Source of the DNA: Branchiostoma lanceolatum
Lineage: Eukaryota > Chordata > Leptocardii > Amphioxiformes > Branchiostomatidae
Direction of reading: 5' to 3'
Assembly: GCF_035083965.1 (NCBI RefSeq)
Contig: NC_089731.1
Coordinates: 1,912,001-1,976,000, forward strand
Length of the DNA stretch: 64,000 nucleotides
Shown piece after piece: positions 2,250 to 57,000 of the stretch. The first letter of the stretch is position 1. Each line of letters opens with the position of its first letter. Under the pieces are notes generated by a model. The model saw nothing but the letters and a program-made list of their open reading frames with translations. It was not told the DNA's origin and searched no databases. The position numbers and the translations under genes are program-made.

Positions 2250-5200
2250 CTATAAAACCATGCCGACCCCTGCCGTCAGAGTCCAGCCGGCCAGAAGACC
2301 CGCAGCAGTCCACATGGAGGCTGACATCCCGGCACCGACGGAAACCGGCCCCGCACATGCGCAGCACACCCGGGCCAGGGCGGACACCAAGTAGTTCCAG
2401 AAGAACACCTGGGGAACAGACCAGAAGCTGAGGATTTTATGCGAAGCTACAGCTACTAAATCATAAACAGATCTTGTCTGAATGTATGACCACGTTATGT
2501 ACACAGTAGGTAATCTGTTTAGAATGGTGTGCGCCTGTACCGAGTCATGGTTTAATATAGTGTCATGGGTGTTTATAGTATTGTTGTCAGTATTCACCGA
2601 ATGTTTGATCATAGCGTGCACTGTAGTCTAACCTATTTAGAGCGGAGGAGCGCCTGTACGCAGTCTGGGCTCTGCATAGTAAATAGAGCTATAGAATTGA
2701 AGGTACGTCTGCTGTTAGAGGGAGTTAGTGTTGTTTAAGTAATTAATATTTCTAGCCTGATCTGTTTCGAGCGGAGGTGCACATGTACGCAGTCTGGGCT
2801 CTGTGTAATGGAGAGTTCTAGGATTGAAGGTACATCTGTTGTTACGGAGAGTCAGAGTTGCTTGATATTTATCTCCATGAAAAATCGAGATATAGTTTTG
2901 GGTGTGTCTGTGTGTCTGTGTGTGTGTCTGTGTGTTTGTTTCCGGACTACCGTGTAAGCAACATAACTCAAGAACCTCTTGATGGATTACAATGAAATTT
3001 GGTATGTGGGCGGGTGTTGTGAAGGCAAAATTCAAGGTCAATTTTGGGCCCCCTGGTATGTGACCTTGGTACTGCAGCAGAACATGTTGTTTTTGTCTGA
3101 CCTGTTTGGAGCGGAGGTGCGCCTGTACGTAGTCTGGGCTCTGTATAATGAATAGAGCTAGGACTGAAGGTACGTCAGTTGTTTAAGTCTGACCTGTTTC
3201 GAGCGGAGGTGTGCCTGTACGTAGTCTGGGCTCTGTATAATGAATAGAGCTAGGACTGAAGGTACGTCTGTTGTTTAAGTCTGACCTGTTTCGAGCGGAG
3301 GTGCACATGTACGTAGTCTGGGCTCTGTATAATGAATAGAGCTAGGACTGAAGGTACGTCAGTTGTTTAAGTCTGACCTGTTTGGAGCGGAGGTGTGCCT
3401 GTACGTAGTCTGGGCTCTGTATAATGAATAGAGCTAGGACTGAAGGTACGTCTGTTGTTTAAGTCTGACCTGTTTCGAGCGGAGGTGCACATGTACGTAG
3501 TCTGGGCTCTGTATAATGAATAGAGCTAGGACTGAAGGTACGTCAGTTGTTTAAGTCTGACCTGTTTGGAGCGGAGGTGCGCCCGTACGGAGACCGGGCC
3601 CATGCTGGTGGACAGGGTGAGGTACTGCCGGCTGTGTTGGTCGTACTGAGGCCACGTCACGGGCAGGTCCTGCGAGTTGGGGTTCCTTCGGACGGAAAGA
3701 TGGAAAGAAAAGTGATCTCGAACCAGTTAAGCTCAAATGAACTCAATGAACAGATGAGCTAATCTTCCACTGGTCGTGACAGAGAAAACAGACGCTATAT
3801 ACAGTGTTTACAGGTTCCTTTCTACGGGGAAATTCCCCTTAGCTAGCTCTTTTCCACAAGCCCAATGAACAGTGGACTTCGGCTTAACGTTCCGTCCTAA
3901 GGACTGCGACCCTTTCCGGTACCGCGCATGCCGGGTGAGCGACACAGCCGGGATCGAACCCGGGGTTTCTAGTTCCAGAGGTAAGATCGCTAACCACTGG
4001 ACTAAGCACGCTACACGAAATATGTTTCGATTTATGTATCAAAGCTGCAATTTACAACACAAGAAATTGGACTTATCCATAAAGTGATTAAATCTATCAA
4101 GGAATGACCGATCCACTGTACTGCCTCTTTTACCAACACAGATGCACATTCAACAGATGATATTAAGTGTGCTCAGTGCCCCAAGAAGAAGAGAGCAAGA
4201 AAAAAACAAGACTAGGAAGAGGAAAACATAATTACCAGAGCATTAAGTAGCCGTGCAAGATTTGGTCGCTATCATCAGTTTTCGCATGTGGTTTTGTAAA
4301 TCACATAATGTACAATGTTTGATGTTTCTGTAGGCTTAATCAGTACCTCCAGGAAATTCACCTCTGCCTAATGCGTACAAAACGCTGCAGTAGTTAACAA
4401 AAAGCAAAGGGAATAATCGTTCTTGTTACCCACATGTGTTTGATGTTTCTGTAGGCTTCATCAGACATTACAAGTACCTCCAAGACATGTGACTCTGCAT
4501 AAAGCGAATGAAACCCCAGAATTACTTCACAGAAAGCAAAGAAAAAATTCTATCTTTTTGTTACCCTGTTTTGGCGAAGTTGGACCACATTCTCCTCATC
4601 TGCAGCCCCAACAGTCTCTCCTCATCAGTCATCATGTCGGTGACGTCAGACGGCCACAGGTAGTAGTTCTCCTCGGCATGGGCGGCCCCGCCTGGCGATG
4701 GAAATGAATTCTCATTTTTTTTCTAGAACGTTCAATCAGTTCAAATCATGATTCTACCATCCTTTCATTCTATACTCAAATACTTTGGTACTCTTTGGAA
4801 TAACACTGGGTTCAGTTTCTGTTTTTCTATCATAAACATCAATCGGGTCACTTATCGATAACCATTGCGTCACCCACACTCTTACTCTTCTGTATTTTTG
4901 GTTCTTTAACACACACGAAAACATAATCAAATTATATATAGAAAATCTATTGAAAGCATTACCAATCCATGGGTGATCGAAGAAGCTGGTCACGTGATCA
5001 AAGTTGTACAAGTACGTAGGATTCCCCGCGTTGGCGAACTCTCGCGCCATTCGCGTTGTCGGGGCAACGAACAGCCAATCACCGTACATCCTCATGAAGT
5101 CCATCTGCAGGTCACGTGGGGTTGCCGAGGCGTCAGTTAGGTACTCAAACTTTGCCGCGTGGGTAATCTGAACCAGGTTTGTGTTGTACGCCCCCATGGT

Positions 5201-54093: not shown

Positions 54094-57000
54094 ATGTCTT
54101 CCCAGCGTCTGGAGCAGGACAAGGGGTCTCTCACACTCTCCCAACGTCTCGAGCAAGACATGGGGTCTCTCTCGCTCTCCGACAAGTCACGCCTTCCGCC
54201 GACCACCGCGCCGGTGTTCTATTCCTCCGCCGGTAAGAAGTTTGCGCCGGTCGTGGCGCCCAAACCGAAGAAGTCGCAGGTCCAGGCGGCGTACCAGGCC
54301 CAGAGGACGACGGAATATTCGCCAAGCGGTACGGGAGCAAGGACACAGGAGAACTATGCAAGTATGTGGTCGGGTTTTTTTATAACAGTATTTTTTTTCA
54401 TCATTGTTTCCTCTTTTATTGTTGTTTGTCAACAGGAATCATTGTTATATCAAACATTTGAGCATACTACACACTGTGTAGTTCTTGTAACATCTCGGGA
54501 GAAATTTCTCGGGAGAAGTATGTGACCTGTCTTTTTGTTGTTTTTCTACTGCATTCTTTTCATCAGTGTTTCTTCTTTTTCTGTTGTGTGTCATCAGGAG
54601 TTGTTGTTATATCAAACAGGTTAAAGTGTTGAACCATACCCTGCATGTACACACACTACACACGATATTGTAACATCTCAGAAATCAGTCTATTGGATGT
54701 TTGTATAAGTAAAATACAGCGTTAGAGTAGAACTACAACAGAAATTCTCTCAGAGTTTGGTTCCATAGAAGGACTAAAGTTATGGGGAAGGACTGAGCGT
54801 ACCTACATGGGAAAACTGCAAGCTGGTTCGGCTGATGCCTTACAATGAATTTTGTGTGCTGCTTTTCAATATTTCTCCCTGGCTTGATTCAAAGCTACTC
54901 TTTTATCTGTAGTAGATGGGTGTATTTGTAGATGAAAAGGTTTGAAACAAGCTATTCCCATTGTGATATAAAAGAAAGGCAATTCAATTTCAGAATCTTA
55001 AAACTTGTTAATTCTTTACTATATCCTGCTTCTGAGATAAAGCTCTGACAGGTCTAATTTGACACTTGATACCCTCCTTAATTCTCACACTTAGTAACCT
55101 GACACCAATCTTACTTCCCTTAGTAAACAGGCCCAGAAGTAGGGGTCATGTAAGGTCAGACACTTTCAGCACTTCCTCTAGCTCTCACATTATAGTTGTA
55201 ACTTTTGTGTATGTGTCTTAGAAGTTAGTTTGACAGCTATAGAGCTTAGGGTTTTGTCAACATTTATCAATTGGTCTTACCTAAACTAAGAGTTGATTGA
55301 GAATAAGGCAAATGTAGGAATTTTTCAAAGATTCTTTTTCATTGCAACTAGTGCAAGGCGGCTTTCATCCATACTGCATTGTCTATCCGAACTGAAGTAT
55401 GTTATAAGAAAAATATATTTTTGATCAAAATGTTAAGTTCACAGTTTCTCCAGTGAAGTTTTAACTAAAGCAAACTCTAGCATTACCCATACCAGTATCC
55501 AGGGTTAAACTTTGGCTCCAGGATAATTTCAGGAATTCCGGAGCACCATTTGGAAAGTCTCCCACCTTAGTAAACTTGGCCGGAATCCCAGCGAGTAGAA
55601 GGAATGTTAGCCTGGGTGTAAACCTCAGGTCCACATGACTATATATAGTCTGAAACCTTCTCCCAGAAAGCAGTCAGCACAGAGGTTTCTTCTCAAATGT
55701 TCCAATTGACCAGAGACTGTTTGGCAGGGAATTTTTAAAACCCAGCTCTGTTCAATGTAAGAATTAGGTAAAAGGTAAACCAGTCATCCACTTAAATGGT
55801 TGAGCATGATGCATTTTAAACTAAAGTAGTTAGTAGGCTCACGTCTTCAGCCAAGCACACAGGGTCACCCCTACTTCTTTTTGATACATGTAGGTGTGTT
55901 GTTTGCTTTTACATGCAGAGGTTTGATACCTGAGACATGTGACTGACGACTTAACGTCCCCTCTTCTAAGACAGCACTTTTGATGTAAAATCAGTTTGTT
56001 GTGTCCTTAATTATAGTAATTTGGGCCTTTTAACAAGGTAATGTCTAAGCCTTCCAGTCCTCTGAGTACCCATCCTTTTAAGTCCTGAATGTTTGGTTGT
56101 TATTTCCAATGGCTTAACATCCCCTGCATAGGCAATGCTTGAATGTAAAATGAAGTTCATGTGGCCTGTATGATTACTTAAGCTTCAAGATGACTAGGTA
56201 ACGTCTCAGACTTTCAGTCTTCCAACCTGTCCTTTTTGGGACCCGAATGTTTGGTTGGTCTTTCCTGACGTCAAACCGGGGCAAAAGTCAGGTAAATATT
56301 CTCCTGACTGACGCCAGAACGTCTCCACTTCCTTGAGCAGACAGATCCAAGTGTTTGTCAAAGTGTACAACATACACATGGGCCACTTCAGCAGCATGAT
56401 CTGGTTGTTGAAATAAAGAGGTAGAAAATACATGCATGTCGCAATGTAATGCCACCTTGACTTGGCTGCTCTTCAGTATGCCCCGAAGAAGGCTGACAAA
56501 ATGTACATGTATGTTGACTGTTGTTGTATTTTTAGATATCATATCCTGTTTTACTGTTGCAACATGCAGTCAAAACTGCCCAAGAAGACTACTCAAGACA
56601 AGGGACTGGTAAAATGTGGACAGGTGGTCATGATAACCATAGACAGGATTCTTAAAAGAGTCCCATCTAATTTTATATAGCTATGACCCTCTTGTTCTGA
56701 GCAACCATCCCAGTCACAAACCATTTTCCTCAGTCCCTTGGGTGTTTTTGAGACAAACTCTGACTGTATTTGGAGTTCAAAATGTACTGACAACACCTTA
56801 AAAGTATTGCTGACAAAAATCTTGGTGCCTCAAAATGATGGGCAGTCTGATGACCAAAGCTGGTGTGTTATGGCAAAGGGCGGTTATACCGGCTATATAG
56901 ATACAGATACAGATGCTAAGACTTGACGATTTGAGTATCTTTAAAATGGTTGTTTTCCGTAATTAAGAAAGTCTTGTTGCCCTGAAATGGTAGACAGCGG

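Follow-up and report, generated by a model that had tools for sequence, protein, structure and literature searches.

Tandem duplications across splice junctions and their decoy splice sites at a Branchiostoma lanceolatum locus

Why do exon ends in genes of Branchiostoma lanceolatum recur, splice site included, as tandem copies in the adjacent introns, and are splice junctions preferred sites for such duplications? We addressed these questions in a window of 64,000 nucleotides (NC_089731.1, positions 1,912,001 to 1,976,000), for which a sequence-only reading had proposed minisatellites straddling the exon-intron junctions of most genes. Using gene models from a stricter ab initio run combined with a homology check, we found that nine of the 30 local repeat families in the 64-kb window span a junction, five at acceptors and four at donors. 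The proposal stands for these nine families, whereas several of the listed exons failed or differed in anatomy. Chance matches at equal score averaged 0.25 per dinucleotide-shuffled window over four shuffles. Local repeats were present in all four gene regions counted, at 0.34–0.67 per kb; the lowest density was found in the 46–63.6 kb region, where five of the six counted repeats lay off junctions and three further families were left uncounted.

Arrays at the exon-intron junctions

The carboxylesterase gene model (2250..8264, minus strand) comprises eight exons and matches PF00135 with an E-value of 1.5e-150. As the sequence-only reading had stated, junction-spanning arrays occur at its exons 2, 4 and 7. 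The donor array of exon 7 (2624..3599, minus strand) is built from a 92-bp unit of 38 exon and 54 intron bp, with a main block at 3086-3599 and older copies at 2624-2864. Its decoy donors at 3469, 3377, 3285, 3193 and 3101 have scores equal to that of the real site. Decoy copies d1 and d3 are identical, d2 and d4 show one difference, and the distal copies d5-d7 have diverged. The donor array of exon 4 (5806..6426, minus strand) contains five copies of a unit of about 127 bp (77 exon and 50 intron bp), in which the real copy and the nearest decoy are identical over 127/127 bp. At exon 2, the acceptor array (7578..7768, minus strand) has a 58-bp unit including 10 exon bp, with decoy acceptors at 7658 and 7716. 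The weak array proposed for exon 6 did not hold up: the two-copy repeat at 4316..4566 (minus strand) merely adjoins the donor, reaching at most two exon bases.

The COPB2 gene model (23184..40905, plus strand) starts at exon 2 and rests on homology to beta'-COP; beyond 36451 its exons are only predicted. Five of the arrays proposed for this gene were borne out, all on the plus strand. Exon 4 carries a donor duplication (23958..24275) with a 160-bp unit (25 exon bp) and a weak decoy donor at 24143. The other four lie at acceptors: exon 7 (25850..26263; units of about 133-140 bp that include 4 to 9 bases of the exon; decoy acceptor 26116), exon 14 (29591..29774; a duplicated unit of about 100 bp with 47 exon bp; decoy acceptor 29631), exon 17 (32285..32954; unit of about 136 bp with about 93 exon bp; decoy acceptors 32312, 32448, 32583 and 32720) and exon 21 (35671..36008; unit of about 118 bp with at most 77 exon bp; decoy acceptor 35814 and a farther copy without AG). 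The exon 17 array has an extra 40-bp partial match at 32026, and its copy d4 looks chimeric. The sixth proposed array, at exon 19, turned out to be a single 38-bp exonic fragment without a splice site (34072..34109, plus strand), located 783 bp upstream, and not a mirage, as junction-spanning minisatellites of amphioxus have been called.

The remaining loci gave a mixed picture. A weak duplication with a unit of about 164 bp indeed spans the donor at 54361 (54332..54649, plus strand), which had been assigned to LPP; the copies are 73% identical and the copy has lost its GT. For the weak array claimed at astacin exon 10, no repeat crosses a junction within the astacin model, which spans only 13560-18075 and possibly excludes that exon. 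The repeat at the EEF1AKMT4-like terminal exon (41806..42693, minus strand; unit of about 343 bp) is real, but of another anatomy: the terminal exon and its acceptor region have been copied downstream, twice, and both copies lack part of the exon's interior. The EEF1AKMT4-like array thereby breaks the growth-direction rule of the sequence-only reading, namely that acceptor arrays extend upstream and donor arrays downstream with the exon kept intact. For one-junction units the rule does hold, as plain arithmetic. Since any tandem duplication across one junction yields such polarity, we rejected it as an indication of mechanism.

Decoy splice sites and variation among copies

With up to eight copies sought per array, GT or AG was retained in 21 of the 25 decoys with a mapped junction. 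In silico, each of these 21 decoys would lead to an early stop and a truncated protein if used, which makes translation of the decoys unlikely. The product of the COPB2 model spliced at the exon-proximal sites (exons 23184-36451) gave a gapless alignment of 840 residues with the solved beta'-COP (5a1u).

We also compared the decoys of each array with one another. In two of three arrays, the exonic parts of the decoys were less variable than the intronic parts in this decoy-only comparison: 17/92 against 17/31 variable sites for COPB2 exon 17 (P 3e-4), and 5/77 against 13/46 for esterase exon 4 (P 0.0014). As the intronic parts are pyrimidine-rich, faster mutation alone may explain this contrast. 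Esterase exon 7 showed the reverse pattern (exon 4/38, intron 1/54, P 0.16), which counts against the explanation we favor below. Decoy-derived changes in the three arrays comprised 20 synonymous and 13 non-synonymous ones, compared with an expectation of 30-42% synonymous (P 0.0002-0.03), a range given by 8 of the 27 mutation spectra computed for each set. Differences from the real copy that are common to all decoys of an array had no synonymous bias (6 to 6). Judged from these sequences, the decoys look as if they had been copied from, or had formerly been, the working exon edge.

The decoy most similar to the working copy is the nearest one in four of the five multi-copy arrays, the exception being esterase exon 7. 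A strict outward conveyor was not borne out, as COPB2 exon 17 and esterase exon 7 disagree with it. In COPB2 exon 17, amino-acid changes are scarcer in distal than in proximal decoys and copy d4 appears chimeric, so that simple outward displacement does not fit. Signs of concerted turnover were found in the esterase exon 7 array, with its diverged distal copies, and in the exon 4 array, with its identical nearest decoy; COPB2 exon 17 has the chimeric copy instead.

Placement of the duplications and rival explanations

The case for junctions as preferred sites depends on the null model. Enrichment was 1.5- to 2.5-fold depending on the model, and three nulls disagreed. Tests for exactly one junction, conditional on tolerated outcomes, ranged from P 0.0008 to P 0.11 across sets of two or three genes; all P-values are nominal, the window having been chosen post hoc by the sequence-only reading. 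The excess in these tests is a hint, against the explanation favored below, that placement is not wholly random. The test for at least one junction showed no clear excess (P 0.05-0.56), nor did the number of junctions matched, 8 of 55, compared with 9.5 expected by shifting. The widest placement test took 17 of the 30 families. The other 13 were set aside: five with an offset above 400 bp (13274, 13382, 34072, 43721 and 61273), four lying beyond the astacin model (18164, 19149, 19871 and 19911), one beyond the part of COPB2 that was used (39539), the EEF1AKMT4 family on account of its different anatomy (41806), and two coding repeats confined to a single exon (63042 and 63220). For the founding-unit and unit-anchoring tests, the length, class and identity of each unit were transcribed by hand from repeat listings. 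The exon share of the units ranged from 0.06 to 0.68, with no significant departure from uniformity (KS P 0.25, n=9); together with the five acceptors and four donors, this suggests that breakpoints are not anchored at splice sites. By eye and after the fact, unit lengths seemed uneven modulo 3.

A process targeted to junctions, with duplications seeded by paused transcription, R-loops or breaks where exon meets intron, is unlikely in our view, even if it is the strongest of the rivals. It draws on the founding-unit null, conditional on tolerated outcomes, under which exactly one junction was spanned by 8/9 duplications in esterase and COPB2 (3.2 expected, P 0.0013), by 8/11 with astacin added (3.8 expected, P 0.0095) and by 9/17 with the 46-63.6 kb region also added (4.0 expected, P 0.0028). 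With copies of at least 80% identity, the corresponding values were 6/6 (2.0 expected, P 0.0011), 6/8 (2.6 expected, P 0.014) and 6/9 (2.65 expected, P 0.015), and COPB2 by itself had 5/5 (P 0.0067). Present array footprints, however, gave conditional P-values of 0.018 for two genes and 0.106 for three, and neither esterase (P 0.11) nor the 46-63.6 kb region (P 0.14) stood out by itself. The looser tests lacked an excess, unit ends are unanchored, 8 of the 17 duplications tested missed junctions, and the region had been selected after the fact. The sequence-only reading had suggested a general genome process; with repeats in all four gene regions this is plausible, but splice-site targeting as part of it is weakly supported, with P-values that vary with the null. 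Instability driven by polypyrimidine tracts is also unlikely because donors are affected about as often as acceptors.

We consider it improbable that the decoys are functional, either through splicing coupled to nonsense-mediated decay or as alternative ends, such as a tailless esterase or an alternative EEF1AKMT4 terminal exon. Such a role would suit the 15 of 21 GT/AG decoys whose scores differ from that of the real site by no more than 0.5 natural-log unit, the premature stop from every one of the 21, and the esterase exon 7 decoys, which would remove the hydrophobic C-terminus encoded by exon 8. The second EEF1AKMT4 terminal copy also keeps a long open frame with a pN/pS of 0.31, although this is near the value we would expect for a pair of one constrained and one unconstrained copy. 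Sites in older, weaker arrays have been lost or weakened, and regular splicing is described as undisturbed in the published Adh and globin cases (PMC3087553). Still less probable is an assembly artefact of a highly heterozygous genome. One copy pair is identical (esterase exon 4, 127/127), and the draft assembly of a published mirage array, globin 6 haplotype 1, is described as aberrant (PMC3087553). Copies in most arrays, however, differ by several to 30%, units are locus-specific, and copy types alternate in esterase exon 7, which makes haplotype stacking an unlikely source; for lancelet PGBD5, re-sequencing is reported to have spoken against an artefact (PMC3902484). We give the least credence to the arrays being raw material or relics of intron gain, in which duplicated AG/GT segments become new introns or exons, a model from amphioxus globins. 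A gene finder did call one COPB2 decoy (32448-32588) an exon, as repeats were mistaken for an exon in the annotation of lancelet PGBD5 (PMC3902484). The COPB2 model, however, has no insertion at the array positions relative to beta'-COP, and this comparison, made for COPB2, revealed no new intron bounded by a duplicated segment.

A model of the arrays and comparison with known systems

We favor, as the probable explanation on the whole, mirage-type minisatellites that arise from duplications largely blind to their placement, are spliced at the exon-proximal site, and turn over by copying the working edge. Tandem duplications of about 58-165 bp would occur frequently along genes, mostly regardless of splice sites. 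A unit across one junction would give the arrangement A-U-U-B, in which the copy adjoining the exon body serves as the working edge and the others become intronic decoys. Splicing presumably takes the site nearest the exon body, by exon definition; this, together with the prematurely stopped message predicted for decoy use, would explain why the arrays are tolerated. Turnover by unequal exchange or slippage may copy the working edge repeatedly, and such copying would leave the coding-selection footprint seen in the decoys of two arrays. A bolder version, with exon edges that are copied outward time after time, each round leaving a former edge as a decoy, arrays as a fossil record of selected former edges and junctions as preferred duplication sites genome-wide, seems doubtful to us. 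If junction duplications are common, the genome would constantly test the choice of the splicing machinery among near-identical sites. Such arrays would then amount to natural experiments on exon definition and an annotation trap, and might supply new introns. The footprint in the decoys also points to a means of reconstructing earlier exon edges and the direction in which arrays grow.

Splice-spanning minisatellites, or mirages, have been described for amphioxus Adh and globin (PMC3087553) and PGBD5 (PMC3902484) genes, so the present arrays add a further set to a class already known, and the mirage label of the sequence-only reading fits the structures as presented there. Here as well, units cross an exon-intron boundary (9/30 families) and many copies carry AG/GT signals (21/25 mapped copies). 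The amphioxus Adh3 mirages (Canestro et al. 2002, as told in PMC3087553) have units of 10-72 bp and somatic length instability, whereas units here measure 58-164 bp, and 343 bp in one case. Lancelet PGBD5 is a different gene, but likewise has imperfect repeats at splice sites (60 and 108 bp), with copies annotated as an exon, according to PMC3902484. Intron gain by tandem genomic duplication, as outlined in PMC4974935, shares the within-gene tandem duplication; there an intron was gained, whereas the exon number of the COPB2 model is unchanged. There is also a likeness to amphioxus globin, for which PMC3087553 describes units of about 150-160 bp, BflGb6 copies that are 81-100% identical, duplication of either boundary and edge copies that escape homogenisation. 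The present locus differs from globin in that nine families span junctions within 64 kb and the exonic parts of decoys show a measured coding footprint; what is novel here is the lower exonic variability among decoys in two of three arrays and the synonymous bias of decoy changes.

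Gene models and junction-spanning repeats

We modelled genes with a small ab initio finder, using generic splice matrices and codon scores trained on exons of the window, and checked the models by homology. The eight-exon esterase gene (8264 to 2250, minus strand; PF00135, E 1.5e-150) has a liver carboxylesterase, 1k4y, as its best solved match; its intron 3 reads as having an apparent GC donor (AG/GCAAGT, 7112, minus strand). Directly upstream of the esterase start lie two perfectly inverted 97-bp arms separated by a 9-nt loop (8374-8576), likely a hairpin or MITE-like element. 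The spliced product of COPB2 (exons 23184 to 36451, plus strand) was compared with beta'-COP, and its residues 1-840 align without gaps to that subunit in the solved mouse coatomer 5a1u. The methyltransferase gene that the sequence-only reading named EEF1AKMT4 (45039-42362, minus strand) has a match in the solved protein 2pxx for residues 25-226 of the query. For the gene with the plus-strand donor at 54361, there named LPP, the portion compared with Pfam gave no match. The putative astacin model (13560-18075) is based on a reading of its sequence. Three models are incomplete: astacin past position 18075, COPB2 past 36451, and the gene with the 54361 donor.

TRF returned 42 rows over the window, and a sensitive self-comparison (2.4-kb pieces, microsatellites masked, score cut-off 20) yielded 30 repeat families, where the chance level, averaged over four dinucleotide shuffles, is 0.25 hits of this kind per window. 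In nine families the repeat extends across a modelled splice junction, at five acceptors (esterase exon 2; COPB2 exons 7, 14, 17 and 21) and four donors (esterase exons 4 and 7, COPB2 exon 4 and the 54361 donor), so that repeats cover 8 of the 55 modelled junctions of esterase and COPB2. All nine had been listed in the sequence-only reading, whose other entries fared less well: the weak repeat at esterase exon 6 is real but only adjoins the junction, with at most two exon bases, and the supposed COPB2 exon 19 array is just a 38-bp exonic fragment lacking a splice site. The EEF1AKMT4 array is also real, but the terminal exon was copied to its downstream side and an internal stretch is missing. 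The second copy of that exon (42020-42295, minus strand) keeps a long open frame, with 12 synonymous and 13 non-synonymous differences, and is a possible alternative end. Intron 1 of the same gene contains a copy of a ~670-bp element with identical 60-bp direct repeats on both sides; the two copies of the element (43691-44492 and 39539-40271), 4.1 kb apart, are 91.5% identical. Coding repeats occur at 63042-63342 (21-bp, YTPPQ-type units in a proline-rich exon) and at 37866-37925 (units of 15 bp in a putative tail exon of COPB2), and a nested 11/22/44-bp repeat lies close to the window start (455-547).

Placement of the arrays

An excess of repeats at junctions over random placement is quantified yet equivocal in the window, as three placement nulls give discordant results. 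Shifting junctions against the present arrays and counting families that hit at least one gave no clear excess for esterase and COPB2: 8/9, 7/9 and 6/9 families against 5.5, 5.4 and 5.0 expected at margins of 4, 8 and 15 bp (P 0.05, 0.19 and 0.35), or P 0.25, 0.40 and 0.56 with astacin added. Taken singly, COPB2 gave P 0.10-0.35 and esterase P 0.36-0.85, and the number of junctions hit was not above expectation (8/55 against 9.5 at 4 bp). When exactly one junction had to be hit by the present arrays, 8/9 families did so against 2.7 expected (unconditional P 0.0003; P 0.018 conditional on outcomes leaving single exons intact), and 8/11 with astacin (conditional P 0.11). We take the third null to be the aptest, in which the founding unit is placed in the collapsed gene under the same condition, with small numbers and in a region picked by the sequence-only reading. 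It gave 8/9 against 3.2 expected (P 0.0013), 8/11 against 3.8 with astacin (P 0.0095), 9/17 against 4.0 with the 46-63.6 kb region added (P 0.0028), and 6/9 against 2.65 for copies at least 80% identical (P 0.015); singly, esterase reached 3/4 (P 0.11) and COPB2 5/5 (P 0.0067). Because counted repeats reach 0.34-0.67 per kb across four regions, a high general rate together with dense junctions explains much of the overlap.

The reported polarity, with acceptor arrays growing upstream and donor arrays downstream, holds but lends no weight to a special process. When a duplicated segment spans one junction, the copy adjoining the exon body is always complete, and acceptor arrays therefore lie upstream and donor arrays downstream; the outward polarity is arithmetic. 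The exon share of the unit length ranges from 6 to 68% (KS against uniform, P 0.25, n=9).

Splice sites and coding footprint of the decoys

Among up to eight copies sought per array, with EEF1AKMT4 left out, GT/AG is retained in 21 of the 25 decoys (repeated exon edges within the intron) with a mapped junction, and 15 of these 21 score at most 0.5 natural-log unit from the real site; the gene finder called one COPB2 decoy an exon. In silico, splicing at any one of these 21 would lead to a premature stop codon, which in 20 cases lies within the insert and in one case follows a frameshift. Since the last esterase exon (2250-2408, minus strand) encodes a hydrophobic C-terminal tail, use of an exon 7 decoy would yield a tail-less form.

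The exon parts of 21 decoys from seven arrays, copies that are not independent, differ from the working copies by 78 synonymous and 61 non-synonymous changes over 368 and 1063 sites (pN/pS 0.27). Decoy-derived changes number 47 synonymous to 35 non-synonymous over all seven arrays, including one-decoy arrays that cannot be polarised, against 30% synonymous expected. For the three arrays in which several decoys are complete, the corresponding counts are 20 and 13 (P 0.0002-0.03 across the eight mutation spectra printed). Differences from the working copy that every decoy of an array shares are equally divided, 6 of each type. When decoys are compared only with one another, their exon parts are less variable than intron parts at COPB2 exon 17 (17/92 versus 17/31 sites) and esterase exon 4 (5/77 versus 13/46), but not at esterase exon 7 (4/38 versus 1/54, with four decoys used); the pooled P is 0.011. 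Faster mutation of the pyrimidine-rich intron parts may give this contrast, yet would not alone produce the synonymous excess. The decoy most similar to the working copy is the nearest one in 4/5 arrays. Given the synonymous bias, the less variable exon parts and this likeness, decoys seem to derive from the working exon edge by repeated copying, or to have formerly been that edge. The fourth COPB2 exon 17 decoy appears to be a chimera of the working copy and the third decoy, suggesting that copies of this array have exchanged sequence.

Relation to known mirages

Mirages, lancelet minisatellites spanning splice junctions, are described in Adh3, reported in two amphioxus globin genes and suggested to be a more general phenomenon in the excerpts of PMC3087553; those of PMC3902484 deal with mirages of PGBD5 and also name troponin C. 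Among the matches listed, no title or abstract opening announces a genome-wide count. The arrays of the window, a single sequence on which all our results are based, are thus an additional set of an already known kind, to which we add a measure of junction enrichment, with an equivocal outcome, and the coding footprint of the decoys.
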